Assembly (NCBI RefSeq): GCF_003480255.1
Contig: NZ_QUIN01000005.1
Span: forward strand, 1-64,000
Reading direction: 5' to 3'
DNA from: Erysipelatoclostridium sp. AM42-17
Lineage (GTDB): Bacteria; Bacillota_I; Bacilli_A; Erysipelotrichales; Coprobacillaceae
DNA: 64,000 nt
In this document: piece by piece, positions 3,562 through 49,328 of the stretch
How the letters are laid out: each line of letters opens with the position of its first letter
Position numbering within the stretch: position 1 is the stretch's first letter
Program-made: the position numbers and the translations under genes
Notes under the pieces: generated by a model
What the model saw: only the letters and a program-made list of their open reading frames with translations
What the model was told of the DNA's origin: nothing
Databases searched by the model: none

Positions 3562-4151
3562 TAAATGTTTTTACAAAAGAGAACTTTACCAATAATATGT
3601 AATGGATATTTGTCAATTTCTTGTGAATTAAAAGTACGAGTAGGATATTGAGGATTACTTGCGACCAGAGAAATTTTATCCTGCTCTTTTTTATATATTT
3701 TAACCGTCACTTCTTGATCTATTAAAGCAACAACGATGTCACCATTGTTTACATTTGTTGTTGCTTTAACATAAATTAAAGAACCATCAATGATACCAGA
3801 AGGAAGCATTGAATCACCGGAAACCTTTAAAAAGAAATCCCCTTTTTCATACTCATCTAAAGTACAGGCTTCCATTCCTAAATAATTTTCTTCTAAATAC
3901 ATATCATACCCTGCTTTAACGTGACCTAATATCGGTCTTTTTAAATCAACGGCTTGTCCTTGCAAGATAGCTTGAATATCGTAACCTAAAATATGACTTA
4001 TTCTTTGAGCTGTTTCATCTTGAATAGACCTAATTTCTCCTCTTAACCAACGACAAACTGTATTGTGGCTTACACCAAACAAATGGGCGAGTTCTTTGTT
4101 ATTGTAACCACATCTTCTTTTATATTCTCTTAATATATCTTGTAATTCCAT
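3558..4151 (-). CDS. LexA-like XRE/S24 autocleaving repressor
   Basis: Residues 5-60 form an XRE helix-turn-helix (NNKELAHLFGVSHNTVCRWL). The C-terminal half is an S24/LexA peptidase domain with a candidate Ala80-Gly81 cleavage site, catalytic Ser114 (SGDSM) and Lys151. All parts needed for RecA-stimulated self-cleavage are therefore present. It is divergent from a Y-family polymerase operon, and a perfect inverted repeat lies in the shared promoter region. By analogy with LexA and with HdiR-type repressors, DNA damage would trigger cleavage and derepress the polymerase. Its HTH is XRE-type, unlike canonical LexA, so it is a dedicated local switch rather than the global SOS repressor. Confidence 0.85.
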   Translation of the reverse strand: MELQDILREYKRRCGYNNKELAHLFGVSHNTVCRWLRGEIRSIQDETAQRISHILGYDIQAILQGQAVDLKRPILGHVKAGYDMYLEENYLGMEACTLDEYEKGDFFLKVSGDSMLPSGIIDGSLIYVKATTNVNNGDIVVALIDQEVTVKIYKKEQDKISLVASNPQYPTRTFNSQEIDKYPLHIIGKVLFCKNIY

Positions 4152-4209
4152 ATGTCTACCTCTTTTTTTGATAGTATTATTTTATAATAAATGAGATAAA
4201 AAATAAACG

Positions 4210-4255
4210 AAGTATACATAATAAGATTGATTATGTATACTTTTTGTATCATAAT
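4210..4255. promoter_or_regulatory. inverted-repeat operator and promoter of the polymerase operon
   Basis: Two perfect 13-bp arms (AAGTATACATAAT at 4210-4222 and its complement at 4230-4242) flank a 7-bp spacer. The right arm overlaps the -35 box TTGATT (4227-4232) of a promoter whose -10 is CATAAT (4250-4255, 17-bp spacing). Binding there would block transcription of the polymerase gene at 4273. The S24 repressor encoded at 4151 is the obvious candidate ligand. Confidence 0.75.
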
Positions 4256-4272
4256 AAAAAAGAAAGGAGGAA

Positions 4273-5754
4273 ATGATGAAAGAAAATATTTATGCAGCCA
4301 TTGATTTAAAATCTTTTTTTGCTTCTGTAGAATGTAAGGAAAGGGAATTAGACCCGCTTACGACTCATTTAGTTGTCGCTGATGAAAGTAGAAGTGCAAA
4401 AACGATTTGTTTAGCTGTAACACCTTCATTAAAAGCTTATGGTATTTCTTCAAGAGCAAGGCTATTTGAAGTCATTCAACAAGTTAAAAAGATAAACCAA
4501 GATAGAATAAAAAAAGCACCACGATATATGTTTACAGGAAAATCCACCAGTGCTAAAGAACTTAATAAAAATCCTGGTTTAGAATTGGATTATGTCATCG
4601 CTCCTCCACAGATGGCAAAATACATAGAATACAGTAAAAGAATATATCAAATTTATTTAAAGTATGTATCAAGCCAAGATATTCATGTTTATTCGATAGA
4701 TGAAGTTTTTATAGATATTACGCATTATTTATCTATTTATCAATGTGATGGATATCAATTAGTAAAAAAAATAATACAAGATATTTATGCGGAAACGGGT
4801 ATTACAGCCACCGCAGGTCTAGGAACAAATCTTTATCTAGCTAAGGTGGCTATGGATATTCAAGCTAAGCATATTCAACCCGGTCAAGATGGTGAAAGAA
4901 TAGCCTACTTAAATGAGTTGACTTATCGTCAATATTTGTGGAAACATCAACCACTTACGGATTTTTGGCGGGTAGGAAGAGGCTATGCAAGTAAGTTAGC
5001 GTCTTTCAATATTTATACAATGGAAGATATTGCACGTTGTTCGTTAGAAAACGAAGATGTGCTTTATCAACTATTTGGGGTCAATGCAGAATTGCTTATT
5101 GATCATGCTTGGGGATATGAGCCTTGTACTATACAAGATATTAAATCTTATCAGCCAATGTCTAAAAGTATTGGCTCAGGACAAGTTTTACATCATCCTT
5201 ATTCTTATGAAAAAGCAAAACTGATTGTTAAAGAGATGATGGATTTATTAGCTTTAAAAATGGTAGAAAAGAATATTGTAGGTAAAAAATTAGTGTTAAC
5301 GATAGGTTATGATAAGGATAATCAAAATTATACAGGAGAGGTTAAAGAGGATTTTTATGGTAGAAAGATACCTAAACATGCTCATGGTACAATTGATTTA
5401 CCACAAATGACAGCATCATCTAAATTGATGATGGAAGCAATCGTGACTTTATTTGAACGGATTGTAGATGCTTCATTACTAATAAGAAGAATTAATATTA
5501 CGGTTTGTCATCTAGACTATTATCAAGAAGATTTACATCATTATGTACAATATCATTTATTTGAAGATCTTTCATTACAAGAACAAAAATATCAAACAAT
5601 GCAACAATCATTAAAAGAAGAAAGAAAACTTCAACAAGCAATGATCACTATAAAAAATAAATATGGCAAAAATGCCATATTAAAAGGAATGAACTTACAA
5701 GAGGGTGCCACAACCAAAGATAGAAATAATCAAATAGGAGGACATAAAGCATGA
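4273..5754 (+). CDS. Y-family DNA polymerase (UmuC/YqjW-like)
   Basis: A translesion DNA polymerase. The N-terminal catalytic motif AIDLKSFFASVE and the palm motif SIDEVFIDIT supply the metal-binding acidic residues. A helix-hairpin-helix region (DFWRVGRGYASKLASFNI) and a little-finger domain follow. The 493-residue length and the insertion between fingers and palm (around residues 75-125) match the UmuC/YqjW/UvrX branch rather than DinB. A strong AAAGGAGG precedes two adjacent ATGs (4273, 4276). It overlaps the YolD-like gene by four bases (ATGA), so the two are coupled. Expression is probably under the divergent S24 repressor. Confidence 0.9.
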   Translation: MMKENIYAAIDLKSFFASVECKERELDPLTTHLVVADESRSAKTICLAVTPSLKAYGISSRARLFEVIQQVKKINQDRIKKAPRYMFTGKSTSAKELNKNPGLELDYVIAPPQMAKYIEYSKRIYQIYLKYVSSQDIHVYSIDEVFIDITHYLSIYQCDGYQLVKKIIQDIYAETGITATAGLGTNLYLAKVAMDIQAKHIQPGQDGERIAYLNELTYRQYLWKHQPLTDFWRVGRGYASKLASFNIYTMEDIARCSLENEDVLYQLFGVNAELLIDHAWGYEPCTIQDIKSYQPMSKSIGSGQVLHHPYSYEKAKLIVKEMMDLLALKMVEKNIVGKKLVLTIGYDKDNQNYTGEVKEDFYGRKIPKHAHGTIDLPQMTASSKLMMEAIVTLFERIVDASLLIRRINITVCHLDYYQEDLHHYVQYHLFEDLSLQEQKYQTMQQSLKEERKLQQAMITIKNKYGKNAILKGMNLQEGATTKDRNNQIGGHKA

Positions 5755-6152
5755 AAGAAGATCTTTATACAATTAAACGTCCATTATCTAAAAATCATCA
5801 ACCGATGTCTAGAAAAGCAAGAGCAGCTCAATTTGCTCCTTTTTCAGCTTTAGATGGTCATAGTGATGAAATTATAGAAGCAAGTCGTTATACTACTTTA
5901 AAGAAGCAGTTAGATGAAGATCAAAAAGCACAATTAGATTATCAATTACAAGATTTACAAGAAAATTTAGAAACCAATCCTTTAGTAGGAGTTTGTTATT
6001 TTATTAAAGATCAAAGAAAAGCAGGGGGACAATATTTATATCACAAAAATTATATTAAAAAGATTAATCTTGATCAAAAATATCTATTATTTAAAGATGA
6101 AACACTTATTCCATTTGATACTATTTATCAAATAGAAATAAAAAAAGCATAA
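5751..6152 (+). CDS. YolD-like protein
   Basis: This 133-residue protein carries the typical YolD N-terminus (NHQPMSRKARAAQFAPFSAL) and the C-terminal pair of motifs in which an imidazole-like DNA-binding fold ends in IPFDTIYQIEI. Genes of this family usually lie directly behind umuC-type polymerases (yqjX behind yqjW in Bacillus subtilis) and are thought to play a UmuD-like accessory role. That role is not firmly proven. Here the start overlaps the polymerase stop by ATGA, which supports co-translation. Confidence 0.85.
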   Translation: MKEDLYTIKRPLSKNHQPMSRKARAAQFAPFSALDGHSDEIIEASRYTTLKKQLDEDQKAQLDYQLQDLQENLETNPLVGVCYFIKDQRKAGGQYLYHKNYIKKINLDQKYLLFKDETLIPFDTIYQIEIKKA

Positions 6153-6215
6153 TATAATTTGTTGAAAATAAGAGGGAGGTGTATACTTTATATAAAGTTT
6201 AAAGGAGGCTTTTTT

Positions 6216-7589
6216 ATGTACGCAAAAAATAGTTGGAAAAAATATCAAGAACAAGATCATGGTGTTGAAGATGTTTTTGCATTTAATGAACTTTATAAAG
6301 ATTTTATTACAAAAGGAAAAACAGAACGTGCTTGTGTAAAAGAAGCATTATCATTAGCGAAACAAGCTGGTTTTAAATCGTTAGATGAGTATGATCAATT
6401 AAAAATAGGGGATAAAGTTTATGTAGTGAATAAAGAAAAAAATATTGCTTTATTTGTTATTGGTGAAAGACCTTTAGAGGAAGGATTACGTATATTAGGG
6501 GCACATATTGATTCACCACGTTTAGATTTAAAACAAAATCCTCTTTATGAATCAGAAGGATTTGCATTAGCTGATACACATTATTATGGTGGTATTAAAA
6601 AATATCAATGGGTAACTATTCCTTTATCTTTATATGGGGTTGTTGTTAAAAAAGATGGTGAAGTTGTAGATATTGTTATTGGAGAAGATGAAAATGATCC
6701 AGTAGTAGGAATTAGTGATTTATTAATTCATTTATCAGCTACCCAATTAGATAAAAAAGCAGCTAAAGTAATTGAAGGTGAAGATTTAGATATTACACTA
6801 GGTAATATGCCATTAAATAATGAAGAAAAAGATGCCGTTAAAGCATCCATTTTAAAATTATTAAAAGAAAAATATGGTATTGAAGAAGAAGATTTTTTAA
6901 GTGCTGAAATAGAAATTGTACCAACCGGTAAAGCAAGAGATTATGGTATTGATCGTTCTATGGTAGCAGGATATGGTCATGATGATCGTGTTTGTGCTTA
7001 TACTTCTTTAAAAGCTATTTTGGATATTGATACTTGTCGTTATACAAGTTGCGTTATTTTAGTTGATAAAGAAGAAATAGGTAGTGTAGGAGCAACAGGC
7101 GCACAATCTTTATTCTTTGAAAATACAATTGGTCAATTATTATATAAAATGTCCATCGATAGTTTTATTAAAACAAGAATGACATTAGAGAATTCAATGA
7201 TGTTATCAAGCGATGTTTCGGCTGGGGTCGATCCTTTATATTTATCAGTTAATGATAAAAAGAATGCTGCTTATTTAGGAAATGGTATTGTTTTTAATAA
7301 ATATACTGGGGCAAGAGGTAAATCAGGAAGTAATGATGCAATGCCAGAATTTATGGCGCGTTTACGTCATATTTTAGATAAACAAAATATTCATTATCAA
7401 ACTGCAGAATTAGGAAAAGTAGACCAAGGTGGTGGCGGAACGATTGCCTATATTTTAGGTAATTATAATATGCAAGTGATTGATGCAGGTATTGCTGTAT
7501 TAAACATGCATTCGCCAATGGAAATTGTAAGTAAAGTAGATGTTTATGAAACATATCAAGCGTATAAAACTTTCTTAAAAGATGCATAA
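6216..7589 (+). CDS. M18 family aminopeptidase
   Basis: A cytosolic zinc aminopeptidase of 457 residues from the chosen start. Metal- and active-site regions are visible: GAHIDSPRLDLK (first His and Asp), LVDKEEIGS (Glu pair), YGHDDRVCAY, and a C-terminal NMHSPMEIVSK with the last His ligand. These are the M18 (aspartyl aminopeptidase, Ape1/ApeA) motifs. The ATG at 6216 follows AAAGGAGG at 6201-6208. An upstream TTG at 6159 in the same frame would add 19 unconserved residues and is rejected. A strong hairpin terminator follows. Confidence 0.9.
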   Translation: MYAKNSWKKYQEQDHGVEDVFAFNELYKDFITKGKTERACVKEALSLAKQAGFKSLDEYDQLKIGDKVYVVNKEKNIALFVIGERPLEEGLRILGAHIDSPRLDLKQNPLYESEGFALADTHYYGGIKKYQWVTIPLSLYGVVVKKDGEVVDIVIGEDENDPVVGISDLLIHLSATQLDKKAAKVIEGEDLDITLGNMPLNNEEKDAVKASILKLLKEKYGIEEEDFLSAEIEIVPTGKARDYGIDRSMVAGYGHDDRVCAYTSLKAILDIDTCRYTSCVILVDKEEIGSVGATGAQSLFFENTIGQLLYKMSIDSFIKTRMTLENSMMLSSDVSAGVDPLYLSVNDKKNAAYLGNGIVFNKYTGARGKSGSNDAMPEFMARLRHILDKQNIHYQTAELGKVDQGGGGTIAYILGNYNMQVIDAGIAVLNMHSPMEIVSKVDVYETYQAYKTFLKDA

Positions 7590-32880: not shown

Positions 32881-32914
32881 AAATAGCAAGGGTTCGTTTG
32901 AACTCTTGCTATTT
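32881..32914. terminator. bidirectional terminator between murD and the response regulator gene
   Basis: Arms AAATAGCAAG and CTTGCTATTT with an inner GTTC/GAAC helix. It overlaps the stop codon of the minus-strand gene. Confidence 0.7.
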
Positions 32915-33757
32915 TAAATCTTGTAAAGCTTGTTGATACATATTTTCAAATGTTGCTGCTTGATTAATATAAGTCATCCCTGCCATTAATATAATTTCAT
33001 CAGGAAATTCTGTTAATTTTTTTTGATTATATAGACGAACAATGTCTTCTATTTTAGCGTAAAGGGCTTCTTTGGATTGAGGGTGAGTGACATAGACAGC
33101 AATCATATCCTCACTTATATGACCAATAATATCTTCTTTACTAAACTGGCTTGAAATAAAGACTGTTGTTTTTTGAATAATGGTATTTCCCAAAAGAGTT
33201 CCCTCATTTTGATAAATTTCATTTAGACCATGAATTTTAAAAATAGCAAGTGCTCTTTGATCATGAGGATGATGACTGCTTTTTTCATCAACGAGCCATT
33301 TTAAAGTATCAAAGTGAAAAACTTTAGTAAGTTGATTAACTTTTGATTCATCAATAGAATGATGTTCTTCCATAAGTTGTTTATAGCGATAATAAAATAA
33401 TCCTGCATGATAAACACGATTGATGATAAGTTCACTCATAAATGGCTTAGTAATATAATCATAAGCTCCTGCATCAAAAGCTTCAATTAAATCATTTTCT
33501 TGGTTACTTGCCGCAATAACAATAACAGGTATTTTTTCAGTTCTTTCATTTTTTTTAATAAGTCTTAATAAATCGATAGCTCCGGGTGTTACTAAATCAA
33601 GTATAATGACATCAAATAAGTAATTAGGATCTTCTATATAATTTAAAGCATCTCTAATAGTATGTACACCGGTGGTAATGAAGTAAGGATTAAATATTTT
33701 TTGCATTAAAGCTTGATTTATTGTTGCGTCATCAACTAATAGTAAATGCATTTCCAT
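32909..33757 (-). CDS. response regulator with degenerate GGDEF domain
   Basis: Residues 1-120 are a receiver domain (LLLVDDATINQ acidic pocket, DVIILDLVTPG with the phosphoacceptor Asp, VIVIAAS, and Lys in DYITKPF). The remaining 150 residues have the fold pattern of a GGDEF domain, but the signature is replaced by His-Ile-Ser-Glu-Asp, so diguanylate cyclase activity is unlikely. ATG 33757 has GAGGTGAT upstream. The frame is open for 26 more residues, which are rejected. It lies between murD and spoVE on the opposite strand, an unusual insertion in a conserved wall-gene order. It faces away from spoVE and shares its promoter region. Confidence 0.8.
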   Translation of the reverse strand: MEMHLLLVDDATINQALMQKIFNPYFITTGVHTIRDALNYIEDPNYLFDVIILDLVTPGAIDLLRLIKKNERTEKIPVIVIAASNQENDLIEAFDAGAYDYITKPFMSELIINRVYHAGLFYYRYKQLMEEHHSIDESKVNQLTKVFHFDTLKWLVDEKSSHHPHDQRALAIFKIHGLNEIYQNEGTLLGNTIIQKTTVFISSQFSKEDIIGHISEDMIAVYVTHPQSKEALYAKIEDIVRLYNQKKLTEFPDEIILMAGMTYINQAATFENMYQQALQDLK

Positions 33758-33856
33758 ATCTATCACCTCTGTACTTATTATAGTATAAATTTCATAAAAA
33801 TAACGGAATAAAAAATAAAAAAGAATAATTTTCATATATTATTAGGGGTGAAATAA

Positions 33857-34852
33857 ATGAAAACAAAAAGAATCATTCTCATCATTTCTATTATTGTAAT
33901 GATTGGCTTAATGATGGTATATAGTGCCTCCCATATATGGGCTTATTATAAATTCAATGATCATTATTATTATTTCAAACGACAAGCCCTTTTTGCAATA
34001 TTAGGAATCGTGATGATGTTTATTTTTTCAAAAATAGATTATCATCTTTATCAAAAATATAGTATTACTATTTTACTGGGAAGTTTGGTGTTATTAGGAT
34101 TAGTTTTAATTCCTGGTGTAGGGGTTGTAAGAGGGGGTTCAAGAAGTTGGTTTAATTTTGGCTTATTTGCTTTACAACCTTCAGAAATATATAAAATTGC
34201 GATGATTATTTATGTAAGTGATTATTTAGCTCATCATTATCATCAAATGAAAAAGGTGAAAACAGCTTTTAAATTAGTTTTCATGAATTTAATAGGGTTT
34301 GGTTTAATTATGTTACAACCTGATTTTGGTAGTGGTTTAGTGATTATATGTTCAGTAGCATTAATGGTGATGGTGTCACCTTTTTTGTTTCGCTATTTTT
34401 TATCGGTAGGATTAATAGGTTTAGCTGGAATGGTCACAATGATTTTATCAGCGAGCTATCGTTTAAAAAGAATTACAGCTTATTTGAATCCGTTTGCTGA
34501 TCCTTTGGGATCAGGATTTCAAATGATTCAATCACTTTATTCTATTGCTCCAGGAGGAATTTTAGGAGTAGGTTTTGATCATAGTATTCAAAAACATTTT
34601 TATTTACCAGAACCACAAACAGATTTTATTTTTGCTATCTATTTAGAAGAGTTTGGCTTAATAGGAGGTATGTTTTTAGTTTTACTTTATACTTGCTTTT
34701 TTGTTTATTGTTTTACACTTGCAAAGTATGTAGATGATCTTTTTGGTAGTTTTTTAATGTTAGGCATTGTTTTTATGATTGGTATTCAAACTTTTATGAA
34801 TCTAGGGGTTGTAGTAGGATTGCTACCAGTTACAGGTGTAACGCATTTTTAG
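33857..34852 (+). CDS. spoVE: SpoVE/FtsW SEDS protein, 5' part of an interrupted gene
   Basis: SEDS-family peptidoglycan polymerase. Its sequence tracks Bacillus SpoVE closely (VYSASHIWAYYKF, LIPGVGVVRGGSRSWF, LQPSEIYKIAM, DPLGSGFQMIQSLY, LPEPQTDFIFA with the catalytic Asp), and the position murD-X-murG is that of spoVE. It ends abruptly: after GLLPVTGV the frame reads Thr-His-Phe and stops, so the last helix and the family signature (LP followed by Ser-Tyr-Gly-Gly) are missing. The missing end is found in frame at 38445-38540, beyond a recombinase-bearing element. Joined at ACAGGTGT the protein is 357 residues. As it stands the gene is probably inactive. The AGGGGTG ribosome binding site supports ATG 33857. 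Confidence 0.93.
   Translation: MKTKRIILIISIIVMIGLMMVYSASHIWAYYKFNDHYYYFKRQALFAILGIVMMFIFSKIDYHLYQKYSITILLGSLVLLGLVLIPGVGVVRGGSRSWFNFGLFALQPSEIYKIAMIIYVSDYLAHHYHQMKKVKTAFKLVFMNLIGFGLIMLQPDFGSGLVIICSVALMVMVSPFLFRYFLSVGLIGLAGMVTMILSASYRLKRITAYLNPFADPLGSGFQMIQSLYSIAPGGILGVGFDHSIQKHFYLPEPQTDFIFAIYLEEFGLIGGMFLVLLYTCFFVYCFTLAKYVDDLFGSFLMLGIVFMIGIQTFMNLGVVVGLLPVTGVTHF
34829..34842 (+). other. left attachment site (attL) of the spoVE element
   Basis: GTTACA-GG-TGTAAC, an inverted repeat around a GG dinucleotide (34835-34836). It lies at the codons for Val-Thr-Gly-Val in spoVE. The octamer ACAGGTGT (34832-34839) is shared with the right site at 38442-38449. Confidence 0.8.
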
Positions 34853-34854
34853 TG

Positions 34855-34882
34855 ATAAAAAAATCAGTCAAGATGACTGATT
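34855..34882 (-). terminator. terminator of the element's GGDEF gene
   Basis: Stem AATCAGTCA / TGACTGATT, followed on the minus strand by seven T. It lies just inside the left end of the element. Confidence 0.75.
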
Positions 34883-36710
34883 ATACTCTTTGAGCTTTCT
34901 TTTGTTTTTTTACTTCATACATAATTGTATCAGCTTTATTGATGGCTGTTTCAAATTGATCTTTGTTGGAAGCTAAGTAATGTCCAACGCTTAATGATAA
35001 ATCAAAGGGATAAGCATGAAGCTGATTAAATGCTTCAACTTTTTGATTAATGATTTGTGGTAATTGGTTTGACATTGCATTAGTAATGATAATAAATTCA
35101 TCACCACCATAACGAATAATAAAATCATCCTGACTGCAAGAATCTAATAGAATTTGTGCTGTCTCTTTAATAGCGTAATCCCCCATATCATGACCGTATT
35201 CATCATTTATTTTTTTCATATAATCCATATCAATAAAATAAATAAGGGCTTGATGATCTTTTTTAATATAGGATTGAAAAAGTGATTTTCCTAAATGATT
35301 CATACCAAAACGATTGTATAAATGAGTGAGAGAATCTTTAATAGAAAGATCTTCTAATCTTTCATTAAGGATGCTTAAAACTTGTTCCTTACGAATTCCT
35401 TCTATTGTTAAACCAAGTAATTTTAAAATAATTGTCATAAAGTTAACAGAAATCATCGTAGAATAATGATCAAATGCTAAATAACCAATAGCGACACCAT
35501 TATTGCTAAGAGAAGTATAGATCATATAACGTGATTTATAAGCTTGAGGAAGAATTTCTTTTTTAGGAAACTTTTGATAGATATGACGTTTATCGGGAAT
35601 AAGTTGGTGATAAGAAATACCCATTAAATACATAATATCGGAAAATTGAGTAATATCTCCAGACATTGAATCAACATAGTCTGAATTCATAATGAGATAG
35701 ACTTGTTTATAACCTAAATTCTGTGATTCTTTTTCAAATATATCAAGTAATTCAGAAAAGTTTGATGCTTTAGAAAAGAGAATTTCTAATCTTTCTAATG
35801 ATTCAAAAAAGCAATTACTATTATAACTGTAAGATAAATATTCTTGTTTTAATTCACTATTATCTTCTTCACTTGCGGGGTAACCGCAACTGACGCTTTT
35901 AATAATCTTAAATGGGCTATAAACATGGGTAATCTGTTTACCAAAAATCAGTTCTCTAGCTGTTTTTAAGGCTGTATAAGTAATCGTCTGATAATCTCTT
36001 TTGATTGTTGTAATTCTTGGGTTTGCTGCTCTAGCAATAGTTAAATTATCAAAACCAGTTACATAAACATCTTTTCCTACTTCAATGTGATGCTGCAATA
36101 AAATATTGACAACACCATGTGCTAAATTGTCATTGGCACAAACAATCAGTTCAGGAAGATGATCTAATAACATTTTGGCTGCTTTTTCACCATCTTCTGT
36201 ATTCCAGTTTCCATCAATAATTTGAATATTTTCAATTTGCTCTGTAGCTTGCAAAAAACCAGCTTTTCTAAGTCTGGCTTCTCTAGAAGTCATGGGACCA
36301 GAAACATAAGCAATATTTTGACAATGCTTTTCATCAATAATGGTCCTTGTTATATCATAGATGGCTTTTTGATTATCTGTTCCTACATAAACACAATTTT
36401 TAATAGGATCATTGATAGATATGACAGGAATATGATAACGATGGGCTGTTTCTATCATTTGTTGGCGATAGTCTTTATAAAAATTAGAGTTAGTTTGAAA
36501 AATTAATGCATCATAATCTTTAATATTGGGTAATTTATATAGTTCTAATAAGCTATCCATCGGATGAACAAGACCGTAATTTCCATAATTTTCAAACAAA
36601 TCAATAGAAATATCTTGATATTCGTCTAAGAATTTTTGAATTCCTTTTTGTTTTTCTTGGACAATTTCAAATAGCCAATCCCAAGAAAAAAAGGCAATTT
36701 TATATCCCAT
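34881..36710 (-). CDS. diguanylate cyclase with LacI-type sensor domain (element cargo)
   Basis: 609 residues. Residues 1-280 resemble the sugar-binding (type 1 periplasmic-binding) domain of LacI/GalR regulators (MGYKIAFFSWDWLFE, IAYVSGPMTSREARLRKAGF, VTGFDNLTIARAANPRITTI) but with no HTH and no signal peptide. A GAF-like region fills about 290-430. A GGDEF domain (about 450-609) has the intact active motif RYGGDEF (GGDEF at 535-539). The RxxD inhibitory site is SxxD, so product inhibition is probably lost. A small cytosolic ligand may thus control c-di-GMP synthesis. It lies wholly inside the spoVE element. GGAGG precedes the ATG. Confidence 0.85.
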   Translation of the reverse strand: MGYKIAFFSWDWLFEIVQEKQKGIQKFLDEYQDISIDLFENYGNYGLVHPMDSLLELYKLPNIKDYDALIFQTNSNFYKDYRQQMIETAHRYHIPVISINDPIKNCVYVGTDNQKAIYDITRTIIDEKHCQNIAYVSGPMTSREARLRKAGFLQATEQIENIQIIDGNWNTEDGEKAAKMLLDHLPELIVCANDNLAHGVVNILLQHHIEVGKDVYVTGFDNLTIARAANPRITTIKRDYQTITYTALKTARELIFGKQITHVYSPFKIIKSVSCGYPASEEDNSELKQEYLSYSYNSNCFFESLERLEILFSKASNFSELLDIFEKESQNLGYKQVYLIMNSDYVDSMSGDITQFSDIMYLMGISYHQLIPDKRHIYQKFPKKEILPQAYKSRYMIYTSLSNNGVAIGYLAFDHYSTMISVNFMTIILKLLGLTIEGIRKEQVLSILNERLEDLSIKDSLTHLYNRFGMNHLGKSLFQSYIKKDHQALIYFIDMDYMKKINDEYGHDMGDYAIKETAQILLDSCSQDDFIIRYGGDEFIIITNAMSNQLPQIINQKVEAFNQLHAYPFDLSLSVGHYLASNKDQFETAINKADTIMYEVKKQKKAQRV

Positions 36711-36805
36711 AATGTTGTCCTCCTATCTCTATTATATCAATTTATGAAAGTGAAAAAAGGTATTTTTATAAAATGTAAAGAATACATTGGTAATGGAGGG
36801 ATAAA

Positions 36806-36925
36806 ATGACAAAATATACATTAGAATTTGAATATATAAGTGGTTTAGAAAATATGGCTAAAGTGATGGAACATTGTTTTCTTCAATATCTTATGAATAA
36901 GGAGAACGTGTGGAATATCGAGTAG
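36806..36925 (+). CDS. 39-residue ORF overlapping the recombinase start
   Basis: ATG 36806 is preceded by GGAGGG, and the ORF runs 39 codons to TAG 36925, overlapping the recombinase GTG start by 16 bases in another frame. The product (MTKYTLEFEYISG at its start) resembles nothing I recognise. Its place directly before a large serine recombinase, its small size and its good ribosome binding site make it a candidate recombination directionality factor, comparable in position logic to small RDFs of phage and sporulation elements. It could instead simply couple translation of the recombinase. Confidence 0.5.
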   Translation: MTKYTLEFEYISGLENMAKVMEHCFLQYLMNKENVWNIE

Positions 36926-38442
36926 GGGGGTATGAAAGACTTTCCAAAGAAGATGAACGATTAGATGAAAGTTCATCAATAGAAAGTCAGCGGATGATTA
37001 TTGATAGTTATATTCATCAACACCATATGAAATTAGTTAAACATTATAGTGATGATGGCTTTTCTGGTTCACATTTTCAAAGACCAGGCTTTTTGAAATT
37101 AAAACAAGATATTGAACAAGGAAAAATTAATTGTGTGATTGTAAAAGATTTATCGAGGTTAGGAAGAGAATTGTATGAAACAGGTTTATATATTGAAGAT
37201 TACTTTTTGATAAAAGGAATTCGTTTTATCGCCATCAGTGACCATTATGATTCACATGTGGGTGATGAAATGTTAGCTTTAAGGTTAAGTGTTAATGATT
37301 TATATTTACGGGATACTTCTAAAAAGATACGAATGGCTTTTGATGTTAAAAGAGAAAGGGGTGAGTATATTGCTTCAAAAGCAAAGTACGGCTATATAAA
37401 AGATCCGAGAAATCATCATCATTTAATCATTGATAAACAAGTATCATGTTATGTTAAAATGATTTTTATTTGGTTATCACAAGGTATAGGGACAACCCAA
37501 ATTGCAAGAAGATTGACAAATTTACAAGTAACGATTCCTTCGATTTATCAAAAAAAGAGAATTCCTGTAAGTAAAGAAGGGGGAACTTGGAGTAGTCAAA
37601 CAGTTCGTGAAATAGGTAGAAATCAGATGTATTTAGGACATATGGTACAAGGAAGATGGAAAAAGGTGAGTTATCATTCTAAAAAGCTGATGACACTTCC
37701 TGAAGATAAATGGATCATTGTAAAAAATACACACGAGGCGATCATATCTCAAGAATTGTATAATCAAGCACAAAGAATTTTAAATCAAAGTAAAAAGTAT
37801 CGGAATAAAAACAATCGTTATTTATTTCAAGGGTTGATTTATTGTTTTGAATGTAAACATCACATGAGTATACATCAAAAACAAAAGCAACTCATGGTAC
37901 AATGTAATTACTATACAAAATATAGTCGTCAGCAACTTTGTTGTAGTCATAGCTTTAATTATCAAATACTAGAAAATCATATACTCACATTTTTAAAGGA
38001 TGTTGGAAAACAATTTTATGAACATTATCAAGAAGAATCTTTATTAAAACAAATAAAAAAGATGTTTGATCAACAAAATAATCAACAACTTACTCTTGCA
38101 CATCAATTAAAAAAGGATATAATAAAAACTCAAAATATATTAAGTCAACTCTATGAAGATAAATTAAATCAAGTTATTTCTTTAAAACAATATCAACTTT
38201 TATCTGCAAAATATCAAGATACTTTATTGTCTTTAATAAAACAACAAGTTCAATTACAAAAGAGTTATCATTCATTTCCAATTAAAAGGTATCAAGAATT
38301 AATTAAACAATTTATGACTTTTCAAATAGTTGATCATGAATTACTTTTTCAAATTATTGACAAGATAGAAGTAGATAAAAATAGACATATTTATATCTAT
38401 TTTAAGGTAGATATGAGTCCTTATATCACTAAGGTAAAGTGA
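36910..38442 (+). CDS. large serine recombinase of the spoVE element
   Basis: 510 residues. The N-terminal resolvase domain (1-150) carries the catalytic Ser in YERLSKEDE, DGFSGSHFQRPGF, and the arginine-bearing VKDLSRLGRELYETG. The recombinase domain (about 165-300) follows, then a zinc ribbon (YCFECKHHMSI and a Cys-Cys pair near 350) and a long Lys/Gln-rich coiled coil (about 380-460). The GTG at 36910 has AAGGAG five bases upstream. The TGA stop lies in the right attachment site. SpoIVCA and TnpX-type proteins share this architecture. It is the obvious enzyme for excising the element. Confidence 0.93.
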   Translation: MEYRVGGYERLSKEDERLDESSSIESQRMIIDSYIHQHHMKLVKHYSDDGFSGSHFQRPGFLKLKQDIEQGKINCVIVKDLSRLGRELYETGLYIEDYFLIKGIRFIAISDHYDSHVGDEMLALRLSVNDLYLRDTSKKIRMAFDVKRERGEYIASKAKYGYIKDPRNHHHLIIDKQVSCYVKMIFIWLSQGIGTTQIARRLTNLQVTIPSIYQKKRIPVSKEGGTWSSQTVREIGRNQMYLGHMVQGRWKKVSYHSKKLMTLPEDKWIIVKNTHEAIISQELYNQAQRILNQSKKYRNKNNRYLFQGLIYCFECKHHMSIHQKQKQLMVQCNYYTKYSRQQLCCSHSFNYQILENHILTFLKDVGKQFYEHYQEESLLKQIKKMFDQQNNQQLTLAHQLKKDIIKTQNILSQLYEDKLNQVISLKQYQLLSAKYQDTLLSLIKQQVQLQKSYHSFPIKRYQELIKQFMTFQIVDHELLFQIIDKIEVDKNRHIYIYFKVDMSPYITKVK

Positions 38443-38458
38443 CAGGTGTCACTTTACC
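38433..38458 (+). other. right attachment site (attR) of the spoVE element
   Basis: Two perfect 12-bp arms (GGTAAAGTGACA and its complement) flank a GG dinucleotide at 38445-38446. The octamer ACAGGTGT (38442-38449) is identical to that in attL. The left arm belongs to the element and contains the recombinase stop codon. The right arm encodes Val-Thr-Leu-Pro of SpoVE. Confidence 0.8.
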
Positions 38459-38540
38459 ATTGATGTCTTATGGAGGAACTTCATTAGTAGTGACGCTTGT
38501 AGAAATTGGAATATTATTAAATATTTCAAAATCAATATAA
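38445..38540 (+). pseudogene. spoVE: 3' part of interrupted spoVE
   Basis: Thirty-one codons plus stop encode the missing SpoVE C-terminus: Gly-Val-Thr-Leu-Pro, the family signature LMSYGGTSLVVTLVEIGILL, and NISKSI. This is the last membrane helix of SEDS proteins. It has no start codon or ribosome binding site of its own. The frame matches that of the 5' part across the ACAGGTGT core. It lies 32 bp before murG, so the original order murD-spoVE-murG is preserved around the element. The coding sequence shows no decay, which argues for a gene that is still used after excision. Confidence 0.92.
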
Positions 38541-45114: not shown

Positions 45115-46758
45115 ATGAAATTAGTCCCTACAGGAATTGAAAACTTTAAAGACATGATTGACAAAGATGCATACTATGTAGATAAAACAGATCTTATAAG
45201 TAATGTTTTAAATGAACAGGTTGTTTTATATACTAGACCAAGAAGATTTGGTAAGACTCTTAATATGTCGATGCTTTATTATTTCTTTTCTATCAAAGAA
45301 AAAGAAAATGCTTATTTGTTTGATAACTTAAATATTTCAAAAAACAAAGATGCACTAAAGCATCAAAATCAATATCCTGTTATTTTTATCTCTTTAAAAG
45401 ATATGAAAAATAATTCTTATGAAGGACAAATGATTAGATTTAAAGAAATTATTTGTTTATGTGCGAAAAACTATCTTGAATTACTTGATGGTGATGATTT
45501 ATTGGGTTCTGAAAAAGAATTGTTTCAAAGATATGTTGATAATAAAATGTGTGATGATGAATTAGAAAGTGCATTATTTAACATTTCATATTATCTTCGT
45601 AAATATTATCATCAAAAAGTCATCATTCTTATTGATGAATATGATGTTCCATTACAATCAGCTTATCAAAACAACTACTATGAGGATATGGTTAACTTTT
45701 TAAGAAATGTCTTTTCGATGGCTTTAAAAACAAACGATGCCTTAGAAAAGGGGATTATGACCGGATGTTTACGTATTTCTAAAGAAAGTATCTTTACGGG
45801 ATTAAATAATTTTAGTTCTTATTCTATTTTAAATAATATCAGTAATGAATATTTTGGTTTTACTGAAAGAGAAGTGAAACAGTTATTAAAAGACTATCAC
45901 TTATCTTCGTATATGGACGAAGTTAAAGAATGGTATGATGGCTATTTGTTTGGAAATTTAGAAATATACAATCCATGGAGTACGCTAACTTATGTAAAAA
46001 ACAAGATATATGATGCTTGTTTCAAACCTGCATCATTTTGGGCTAATACGAGCAGTAATGACTTGGTAATCAATTATATTCAAAATGGTGATGATGAACT
46101 TCATAATGAATTTGAACAACTTATTCAAGGACATGCATTAACGAAGTATATTAAACCAGAACTGACATATCGAGAAATGGATAATATTAATAATGTATAC
46201 AGTTTTTTATTACTTACAGGATATTTAAAAGTCATTAAGAATTTAGGAGAAAATCAGTATCAATTAGTGATTCCTAATAAAGAAGTCTATGAAATTTATA
46301 AACAGTCATTTATGAGTTATTTTGAAGACTATACAAGCAGTAGAAAGAATGAACTTTATCAAATGCTTATGAATGGTCAAATACGAGAAGCAAATGAATT
46401 GTTAAATGATATTTTATCTAGAAGTATTAGTTATTATGATAACGAGGAAAGTTTCTATCATGGATTTTTAGTAGGATTATTTAGTGGAAAGATGTTAAAA
46501 TCAAATAGAGAAGCAATGAATGGACGGTTTGATATATGCATATTACCAAGACAAATATTTCAAATAGCACTTATATTAGAATGTAAACATTCTAGTCGAG
46601 TGAAAGACTTGATTAAAGATGCAAAAGAAGGGGCAAAACAAATCGTTGAACAAAGATATATGGATGAAGTGATTAATGATGGATATCCAAATGTAAAAGG
46701 ATATGGTATCTCTTTTCATAAAAAACAATGTTATCTTGTTGAAGTGGATAAAGAATAA
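45115..46758 (+). CDS. AAA-ATPase-like protein with PD-(D/E)XK nuclease domain
   Basis: 547 residues. The N-terminal AAA-ATPase_like region has a Walker A variant TRPRRFGKTLNMSML and Walker B VIILIDEYDVPLQ. The C-terminal region carries a PD-(D/E)XK core, FDICILPR followed by LILECKHS. This family (often listed with DUF1703) occurs in many copies in gut Firmicutes and Bacteroidetes. Its role is not established. It is a single gene with no obvious partner. Tandem repeats and a terminator lie downstream. Confidence 0.8.
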   Translation: MKLVPTGIENFKDMIDKDAYYVDKTDLISNVLNEQVVLYTRPRRFGKTLNMSMLYYFFSIKEKENAYLFDNLNISKNKDALKHQNQYPVIFISLKDMKNNSYEGQMIRFKEIICLCAKNYLELLDGDDLLGSEKELFQRYVDNKMCDDELESALFNISYYLRKYYHQKVIILIDEYDVPLQSAYQNNYYEDMVNFLRNVFSMALKTNDALEKGIMTGCLRISKESIFTGLNNFSSYSILNNISNEYFGFTEREVKQLLKDYHLSSYMDEVKEWYDGYLFGNLEIYNPWSTLTYVKNKIYDACFKPASFWANTSSNDLVINYIQNGDDELHNEFEQLIQGHALTKYIKPELTYREMDNINNVYSFLLLTGYLKVIKNLGENQYQLVIPNKEVYEIYKQSFMSYFEDYTSSRKNELYQMLMNGQIREANELLNDILSRSISYYDNEESFYHGFLVGLFSGKMLKSNREAMNGRFDICILPRQIFQIALILECKHSSRVKDLIKDAKEGAKQIVEQRYMDEVINDGYPNVKGYGISFHKKQCYLVEVDKE

Positions 46759-47000: not shown

Positions 47001-47031
47001 AAGTAAATGAATTTTAATATTCTATCTTTAA

Positions 47032-47065
47032 TACGACATCCTTTTTATTACAATCAAGCTATGAT
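47032..47065 (+). promoter_or_regulatory. possible Spo0A-type promoter region of spoIIGA
   Basis: TACGACA (47032-47038) differs from the 0A box TTCGACA by one base. TACAAT (47049-47054) and TATGAT (47060-47065) are candidate -10 boxes. In Bacillus the spoIIG operon is activated by Spo0A. The assignment is tentative because one near-match is expected by chance in such short boxes. Confidence 0.25.
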
Positions 47066-47081
47066 AATAAGGGGTGTCAAG

Positions 47082-47819
47082 ATGGATGTATATATAGAAA
47101 TTACCTACTTGATTAATTTAATTGTTTTAATGATTGTTTTTGAAATGATGATCATGTTATTAAATTTAAATTGGTCTTTTAAAAGAATATGTGGCTATAG
47201 TTTTATATGTAATCTCTCATTAATGATGATATATATTGATTTATATAAAATTGTCCCCTTAATAATATGGCTTATCATATTTGCTTTTTTATTTAAAAAA
47301 CAACTTTTTTTATATTATCCTACTTTTTTAACTCTCTATTTTTCTGTTTTATATTTTATAAAAGAACTTGTTGAAGATGGTTTTATATATCATAGCATCT
47401 TGATTATTCCCACTACTTATTATGCAATGAGTTTATTTGTGGTTGGTTTGTTTTTTTCTATGATTCAAGGAATATATTGTTTTTATTTGAAAAAGAAATT
47501 AACGAATCAACGTTTTTGTTATCAAATGAAAATGGAGTATCTTCATCATCAATACCAAATAACAGGTTTTTTAGATACTGGAAATGAGACTTATTATCAT
47601 GGGTTTCCTTTAATTATTATAAAAAAAGAAATCTTAAAAGAATATCAGGTTATTGATCATTTGCTGATTACTTCACCAACCCATTTAGAGATAGAAATTA
47701 TTATGATTGATACACTTACTATTAATCATCAACGATTAAATCATATTTATGCAGGCATAATAAGTCAGATTCAATATGATTGTTTATTAAATAAACAATT
47801 GATGGGAGGAATCTTATGA
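47082..47819 (+). CDS. spoIIGA: sporulation sigma-E factor-processing peptidase
   Basis: A membrane aspartic protease that cleaves pro-sigma-E. The N-terminal half has about five membrane helices ([20 protein letters not shown] first). The C-terminal half has the catalytic Asp motif [13 protein letters not shown]. With 245 residues it is clearly shorter than the Bacillus protein of about 309. ATG 47082 follows AAGGGGTG. 25 extra residues from an upstream ATG at 47007 are rejected. The stop overlaps sigE (ATGA), the conserved operon partner. Confidence 0.88.
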
Positions 47820-48514
47820 TGTGGAAATGGCTTAGGGAATTAATAAATCATCATACATTTTTATATTATATTGGTCATCGTGATATCTTACCGGCACCGC
47901 TTAAAGGAAAAGAAGAATTAGACATGATTTTAAAAGCAGAACAAGGTGACTTATATGCAAGAGATCAGCTAATTGAACATAATTTACGGTTAGTTGTTTA
48001 TGTGGCTAAAAGATATGATCATAATAATTCAGGTCATATTGAGGATTTAATAAGCATTGGTACGATAGGATTAGTTAAAGCAATCAATACTTTTAAAAGT
48101 GATAAAAATATTAAGCTTGCTACTTATGCATCACGTTGTATTGAAAATGAAATTTTAATGTTTTTAAGAAAAAATAATAAATTAAGATATGAAATATCTT
48201 TAGATGAACCTTTAAATGTTGATTATGATGGTAATGAACTTTTACTAAGTGATATTGTTGGAACTGATGATGATTTAATAGAACAAGAAATTTTAAAAAG
48301 TGATCAAAAAAAGATGTTTTATGATGCTTTAAAAGATCTCAATGATCGAGAAAAAGAAATTTTGATTTTAAGATATGGCTTAAGTAACCAAGATGAACTT
48401 ACTCAAAAAGATGTCGCTTCATTAATGGGAATATCACAATCTTATATTTCTCGTTTAGAAAAGAAAATTATCAAAAAATTAAGACAACAATTAAATTATA
48501 ACGAAACAAAATAA
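47816..48514 (+). CDS. sigE: RNA polymerase sporulation sigma factor SigE (pro-form)
   Basis: Mother-cell sigma factor, 232 residues. Region 2 is highly conserved ([29 protein letters not shown] in two blocks, [15 protein letters not shown]), and region 4 ends [21 protein letters not shown]. The pro-sequence before the conserved FLYYIG is only about 15 residues, against about 27 in Bacillus subtilis. SpoIIGA, encoded just upstream, would remove it at the septal membrane. Confidence 0.93.
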
Positions 48515-48560
48515 AAGTATAGAATTGTCAAAAAGGCTCAAAATATGATTGGTGATGATA

Positions 48561-49328
48561 ATGAATGGACAAATTTATTTACAAAATGTGCCTGAACTTG
48601 ACAAATTGACAACGAAAGAAACGTATACACTGATTGATCAATACCAAGAAAATCATGATCCAATGATTAAAGAACGTCTCGTCATTGATAATTTAAAATT
48701 AGTCATATCAATGACGAAACGTTTCTATCAAAAAAGTGAATTTTCACAGGATTTATTTCAAGTTGGCATCATTGGTTTAATCAAAGCTATTGATCATTTT
48801 GATACAAGCTATCAATTACAGTTTTCAACTTATGCTGTCCCTTTAATTATTGGAGAAATGAAACGCTTTTTAAGAGATAATGCCCCTATAAGGGTATCGA
48901 GAACATTAAAAGACTTAGCCTATAAAGTATTAAAATATAAAGATGAATATATAACTTATCATCAAAAAGAACCGACTATAGATCAATTAGTACAACATTT
49001 ACATGTTTCTCGAAATGATATTATTGATGCTTTACTATCAACCCATCATGTTTCTTCTTTAGAAGATCAATTATCAAATGATGAAGATGATTTAAAGTTA
49101 GTAGATTCTATTACTTTAAATCCTCAACAAATGCAGCTTTATCATAGTCATTTAGATTTAATGAATGCTTTAAATCAATTAAATGTAAAACAAAGAAAAA
49201 TTATTAATCAAAGGTATTTTTTAGGTATGTCACAAAGTGAAATCGCAAGAGAAATGAATATTTCTCAAGCACAAGTATCGAGAATAGAAAAAAAGGCGAT
49301 AGAATTGTTACATAAAATGTTGAATTAA
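48561..49328 (+). CDS. sigG: RNA polymerase sporulation sigma factor SigG
   Basis: Late forespore sigma factor of the SigF/SigB/SigG family. DLFQVGIIGLIKAIDHFD, FSTYAVPLIIGEMKRFLRDN, PIRVSRTLKDLAYK and ISQAQVSRIEKKAIELL match SigG, and the gene order sigE-sigG is that of Bacillus. ATG 48561 has GGTGAT four bases upstream. Two earlier in-frame starts (TTG 48549, ATG 48555) are less well placed. About 255 residues. Confidence 0.9.
   Translation: MNGQIYLQNVPELDKLTTKETYTLIDQYQENHDPMIKERLVIDNLKLVISMTKRFYQKSEFSQDLFQVGIIGLIKAIDHFDTSYQLQFSTYAVPLIIGEMKRFLRDNAPIRVSRTLKDLAYKVLKYKDEYITYHQKEPTIDQLVQHLHVSRNDIIDALLSTHHVSSLEDQLSNDEDDLKLVDSITLNPQQMQLYHSHLDLMNALNQLNVKQRKIINQRYFLGMSQSEIAREMNISQAQVSRIEKKAIELLHKMLN

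Follow-up and report, generated by a model that had tools for sequence, protein, structure and literature searches.

The window analysed here, the whole 64,000-nucleotide stretch of contig NZ_QUIN01000005.1 (positions 1 to 64,000) of Erysipelatoclostridium sp. AM42-17, carries in the interval between murD and murG a SEDS-family gene, spoVE, which on direct reading of the sequence proves to be interrupted by a segment of 3,610 bp. The 5' part (33857..34852, + strand, 331 codons) has the C-terminal end GLLPVTGVTHF followed by a stop codon and matches PF01098 over positions 4-326 of 356 (E 6.5e-94). The 3' part (38442..38540, + strand) consists of the final 32 codons and a stop, includes LPLMSYGGTSL, matches positions 323-352 of the same model (E 7.8e-10) and opens in frame with TGVTLPLMSYGGTSL. 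Common to both junctions is ACAGGTGT (34832-34839 and 38442-38449), at a spacing of 3,610 bp; when the segment is taken out, a single spoVE frame of 357 codons results with no frame change. An earlier note on this DNA had described a recombinase-bearing 3.6-kb segment splitting spoVE, which agrees base for base with the window, and had claimed shared junction sequence, a 357-residue joined product and two undamaged gene halves; these claims stand as well, the halves of the attachment (att) sites being intact and the frame being kept on joining. The top NCBIfam score of the 5' part was obtained with the spoVE model TIGR02615 (352.5 bits, cut-off 448.8).

Three genes lie within the element. A large serine recombinase of 510 amino acids (36910..38442, + strand) contains the domains PF00239 (Resolvase), PF07508 (Recombinase) and PF13408 (Zn-ribbon), and its Ser12 is invariant across 36 aligned sequences. 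The second gene is a 39-codon open reading frame (ORF; 36806..36925, + strand), a conserved small partner of the recombinase and a candidate recombination directionality factor. The third is the cargo, a predicted diguanylate cyclase (34881..36710, - strand) with a LacI-like periplasmic-binding domain (PF13377) and a GGDEF domain (PF00990) with its motif intact; a bidirectional terminator-like hairpin (34862..34882) separates it from the spoVE 5' part. No phage structural genes were found with Pfam among these three genes, and none of the three ORFs had a Pfam match to relaxase or transfer genes, for which the relatives described below were not searched.

Regarding the att sites, attL (34810..34861) and attR (38420..38471) share ACAGGTGT with a putative crossover dinucleotide GG at 34835-34836 and 38445-38446, respectively, the latter flanked by perfect 12-bp arms. 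Exchange of the attL and attR halves at this common GG reconstructs an attP in which ATCACTAA...TTAGTGAT flank GT-ACAGGTGT-AC. This attP forms 16 of 25 dyad pairs and the attB 8, compared with 7.2-7.3 pairs (standard deviation 2.3) for randomly joined GG halves, under which 16 pairs have a chance of about 4e-4. The corresponding attP values in ten relatives are 17, 17, 17, 18, 18, 12, 20, 15, 17 and 11, and 16 in genome G438, i.e. the attP dyad is clear (at least 15 pairs) at 10 of 12 loci and weak in G021 (12 pairs, P 0.035) and G255 (11 pairs, P 0.079); the attB, with 5-10 pairs across loci, is not a clear dyad. A long attP dyad, a shorter attB and a fixed central dinucleotide correspond to serine-integrase geometry, as judged from the reconstructed sites, and clearly so in 10 of the 12. 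The central GG falls on one and the same spoVE codon in every split locus, and the arms mostly differ among relatives (e.g., TCGTAATT...AATTACGA), those of G278 resembling the arms of the window. The junctions of G255 have hardly more than the GG in common, which fits a two-base crossover.

With a probability of about 0.7, the segment is read here as a serine-recombinase element lodged in one exact codon of spoVE, the predicted excision of which in the mother cell during sporulation would rebuild the 357-codon gene. In the mechanism proposed, the recombinase would recombine attL with attR at the dinucleotide GG, with the 39-amino-acid protein possibly serving as the directionality factor for excision, and this would take place in sporulating cells, where the cortex requires spoVE. 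Excision from the mother-cell chromosome would yield the intact gene; the forespore would retain the element, and the next generation would be split again. The cargo would benefit growing cells, and excision would not need it.

The same split recurs in other genomes. The closest named relative of the window in a search with MraY was a Thomasclavelia metagenome-assembled genome (77%), and an initial scan of genome contigs with the recombinase alone as query found no relative. Recombinase searches of the 43 genomes of the family found a match at 1e-60 in 18, with 52-59% identity in six and 30-35% in twelve, the positions of the latter twelve being left out of the split count; 9 of 315 genomes of the order matched at E <= 1e-100, as did 4 of 395 genomes sampled from the class at 1e-100, of which two were new. 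In all 11 genomes with a match at E <= 1e-100 spoVE is split at a codon-aligned GG and the C piece is intact. The recombinase adjoins one spoVE piece in each of them, the remaining piece lying elsewhere in the genome: it stands directly upstream of the C part in 9 of 11, and is reversed and next to the N part in G278 and G255. Both parts are on a single contig in the window, G041, G021, G278 and G043 (inverted) and on separate contigs in the other seven, the junctions of which are therefore inferred. No second spoVE of the kind was seen in the family search, where the N part had exactly one match at E <= 1e-40 in each of the 32 matching genomes; further full-length SEDS genes were present, two in 10 of the 11 split genomes and one in G255. 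A comparison with related genomes for uninterrupted spoVE, proposed in the earlier note, was carried out and gave 24 intact genes among the 34 classed genes of relatives; the spoVE tree holds 35 genes including that of the window (11 split, 24 intact), G438, G006 and G013 not being on it.

In another reading, SpoVE would function in two parts, each translated on its own, and its final transmembrane helix would be provided in trans. A possible start for this exists in the window, where a GTG overlaps the stop of the recombinase (GTGA) just upstream of the C part; in 8 of the 12 C parts, however, the stretch from the preceding stop to the junction lacks an in-frame ATG, GTG or TTG. This split-protein idea was rejected on account of the start codons missing upstream of the junction (interior starts were not assessed) and is considered scarcely credible.

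The assignment of spoVE to sporulation was approached through its promoter and its co-occurrence with other genes. In Bacillus subtilis, spoVE is described as being under SigE control and as needed for the cortex (accessible text of PMC517825). In the window, CATATA at 33833..33838 (+ strand) is predicted to be the -10 box of a spoVE promoter of mother-cell (SigE) type, and similar boxes occur upstream of spoVE and spoIVA in relatives: CATATA precedes 27 of 31 spoVE genes (CATATG 1, AATATA 3) and 18 of 20 spoIVA genes (CGTATA 1, AATATA 1). These counts are a description and not a significance test, because the sites were picked by motif. SpoVE and SpoIVA are concordant in 40 of the 43 family genomes (both in 30, neither in 10). 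Position, best NCBIfam score, promoter box and co-occurrence with SpoIVA thus all point to the spoVE of the window being a sporulation gene. SpoIIGA-like, SigE-like and SigG-like genes (47007..49328, + strand) represent further sporulation genes of the same organism; the SpoIIGA match is weak (E 7.5e-5), the best SigE (E 9.1e-99) and SigG (E 8.6e-72) matches are both below the model cut-offs, and the SigE-like protein narrowly passes the SigK subfamily model NF004471 (253.8 vs 252). All split relatives but two have SpoIVA (9 of 11), the copy in G255 being in two pieces on two contigs. From 120 listed SpoVE-like proteins 20 were examined, mostly picked as short, and 12 of these end right after VTG (in two cases perhaps because the contig ends there). 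Among the proteins ending there is the SpoVE of Thomasclavelia spiroformis (P0192, 144 contigs), a species reported as a spore former in the text available from PMC8340488 and PMC4179152; G043, whose SpoVE has an identical tail, is probably this species.

Several observations weigh against the predicted excision. Neither an excised junction nor a circle came to light; in viral contigs the exact attP pattern had 0 matches, which is a weak test. No uninterrupted form from the species of the window was present in the protein set, where the truncated cluster P0121 stood alone and the next match was at 72%; the clusters pool proteins at 90%, and a joined form of the species could be concealed in P0121. 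SpoIVA was not found in the split genomes G009 and G278, although both do contain SigE-like matches, which score below the curated cut-off. In the parts available of the respective papers, the authors' own isolate of C. spiroforme is reported not to have survived ethanol (PMC8340488) and many sporulation genes are described as missing in this order (PMC10868615). The identity of the SpoVE N part to that of G007 was 63.4% for the window and 68.0% for G021, the window being the closer one in murG and murB. In G043 the segment HPr-mraY-murD-spoVE N part, which adjoins an exopolysaccharide-type cluster, is inverted relative to the recombinase and the C part (L165/L131), so that plain excision would not rejoin spoVE; recombination between inverted att sites would instead flip the segment, and no clear inverted repeats were found at the ends of the inverted segment. 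A position weight matrix built from spoIVA and spoVE sites detected no promoter of this type before the recombinase or the small ORF: one of 19 regions scored at p=0.013, which is not significant after 19 tests. Recent integrations, finally, would appear undamaged even without selection.

Some of these points would suit a dead or recent insertion that inactivated spoVE in a host no longer making normal spores, to which the somewhat diverged SpoVE of the window, the unseen excised form and the loss of sporulation reported as common in the group (accessible text of PMC8340488 and PMC10868615) can be attributed. Against it stand, at all 12 loci, an N part open to the junction (cut once more in G438), an in-frame C part and a recombinase with an open frame of at least 510 amino acids, in addition to the attP dyads clear in 10 of 12, the SpoIVA of 9 of 11 relatives, the SigE-like and SigG-like genes of the window and the reported sporulation of T. 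spiroformis. Such a dead insertion is regarded as quite improbable. The ratio of non-synonymous to synonymous substitutions (dN/dS) was low in both spoVE parts (0.04-0.23 in six chosen pairs); it is not used as proof of function, because synonymous changes (dS) are near saturation and the elements may be recent.

The elements also move. Between G007 and G009 the dS is 0.11 for the recombinase, 1.37 for spoVE and 0.81 for murG; a near-identical recombinase beside a diverged spoVE implies that in each of the two species the element inserted at this site, and the sequences thereby show its horizontal transfer. On the spoVE tree the split/intact label changes 7 times, at least 5 of the changes being forced, and is still more clustered than by chance (15 of 500 shuffles were as low). 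Such repeated gain and loss, together with horizontal movement, the negative search for a spoIVA/spoVE-type promoter ahead of the recombinase or the small ORF, and the ParA-like (G007, G009, G438) and ParB-like (G007, G438) genes recognized by eye, which suggest mobile-element biology, would agree with a mobile island that uses spoVE as a mere conserved docking site, is excised rarely and independently of sporulation, and leaves spores to a few element-free cells. However, the site occupied in the 12 genomes is in a gene of which the loss should cost spores, and both of its parts are intact; known analogues are described as excising during sporulation (PMC5595907, in the part available), which leaves a docking site of this sort an unlikely explanation beside the predicted mother-cell excision. 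A viral origin was considered separately and rejected. Relatives of the recombinase did not exceed 38% identity in the 80 IMG/VR loci kept, 34% in the best 8 of 587 phage records and 38% among the best 6 of 316 plasmid matches; with only such distant recombinases among the matches listed, there is no sign that this recombinase clade travels in viruses.

Regarding the cargo of the relatives, all names except the Pfam matches of the window are by-eye readings of translations, made without profile searches. The element of G278 (about 3 kb) has an oxidoreductase-like gene and that of G021 (about 6.6 kb) a surface-type protein and an AraC-type regulator. The element of G041 (about 35 kb; L132, L168, L169) holds an exopolysaccharide-type cluster, and its genes include a NusG/LoaP-like one as well as glycosyltransferases and a sugar transferase; G043 has an exopolysaccharide-type cluster as well, and G001 a tyrosine-integrase-like ORF. 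No evident phage structural genes were noticed in the stretches of the relatives, which were read by eye and not searched with profiles. Homologues of the GGDEF cargo occur outside spoVE in G020 (reaching the contig end) and G017 (frame-split). The statement of the earlier note that the element is much smaller than known phage-derived examples needs a correction: the 3.6-kb element of the window belongs to a family of mobile cargo islands, several of which are much larger.

The scan for relatives of the small ORF covered 10 loci, G438 and G468 not among them, and found such relatives at 9; a profile built from six loci recovered three held-out copies (E 5.5e-14, 5.5e-14 and 1.2e-7), and nothing convincing was found at G255 (E 0.023). 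The ORF stands directly upstream of the recombinase at six loci, a few hundred bases away in G244 and 2 kb away in G007 and G009. The predicted structure of the 39-amino-acid protein, a single helix with a mean predicted local distance difference test score of 72.8, is uninformative. It is proposed as a candidate directionality factor because an extra factor sets the direction in gin, SPbeta and the skin element of Clostridioides difficile, as far as described in the accessible text of PMC5595907, and it may be of use, as a short factor, for serine-integrase tools.

The spoVE of G438 is cut twice. Its usual site is split (attP 16 of 25 pairs, C part on a different contig, in frame), and a second element of 3,667 bp, whose own serine recombinase has 32% identity to that of the window, lies at the conserved PGG-L codon (L300, G438:C14, about 3629-7296, reverse), again with a crossover at GG, in frame, and an attP of 16 of 25 pairs. 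Tentatively, and at somewhat less than even odds, spoVE may be a shared docking gene for islands that carry growth traits between species, with their loss in the mother cell gating the cortex and the two recombinases of G438 forming a double gate. Such docking would span Erysipelotrichales and a further lineage within its class, the traits being a cyclic diguanylate enzyme, exopolysaccharide and surface proteins; islands in spoVE could then also spread surface traits, for instance exopolysaccharide clusters, and the family would illustrate how islands occupy an important gene without ending sporulation.

Among known recombinases of excisable elements, profile matches to the window recombinase were obtained with CcrB (NF047343, E 7.2e-27) and with XisF of the fdxN element (NF041201, E 1.2e-25), a developmental excision recombinase; it is a member of neither model (CcrB score 94 vs cut-off 900, XisF 90 vs 375). 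XisF acts in a heterocyst context. In location, recombinase, core and frame the window element fits the sporulation gene-intervening elements (skin, vfbin, SPbeta, gin and yin), developmental excision being predicted here. The gin element, located in the gerE gene of Bacillus cereus ATCC10987 (28.6 kb, three recombinases, excision measured; accessible text of PMC5595907), is likewise non-phage, lies inside a sporulation gene, has a short shared core and rebuilds the frame, and its serine recombinase GirC with the extra factor GirX would parallel the recombinase and candidate 39-codon ORF of the window. It differs from the window element, which has 3.6 kb and one recombinase, sits in spoVE, occurs in another order and belongs to a family whose members carry different cargo; excision is predicted for the latter. 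As described in the sources available, the skin element in sigK of B. subtilis and C. difficile also leaves a two-part gene that an element-encoded serine recombinase joins in the mother cell, but it is prophage-like (48 kb in B. subtilis) and its target is a sigma factor instead of a cortex protein. SPbeta in spsM, the precise excision of which rebuilds the gene (PMC4191935), and yin in yabG of Clostridium botulinum (PMC10747680) also reside in sporulation genes; in the portions available of these papers they are prophage or prophage-like and have other targets. In literature mostly from outside subscription journals and in part available as excerpts, no earlier report of an element interrupting spoVE was found, nor any sporulation gene-intervening element for Erysipelotrichales. 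If the predicted excision is correct, a cortex-synthesis gene becomes a further case of a spore gene switched through DNA excision, and the window element, with 3.6 kb and three genes, would be a small working set for it.

Some further features were noted at and around these loci. In G006 (L172) the spoVE frame is broken near codon 90 though the C part is joined, by sequencing error or real decay, and in G021 (L133) the spoVE C part is separated from murG by about 3.5 kb with two additional ORFs. Divergent from spoVE in the window is a response-regulator-like gene (32909-33835, - strand), which looks like a host gene and not part of the element, because a 41% relative occupies the same place in G021. 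A 547-amino-acid ATPase-like ORF (45115-46758, + strand) is flanked by a proC-like gene and spoIIGA; ORFs looking similar by eye occur in the spoVE elements of G001, G041, G043, G007 and G009.

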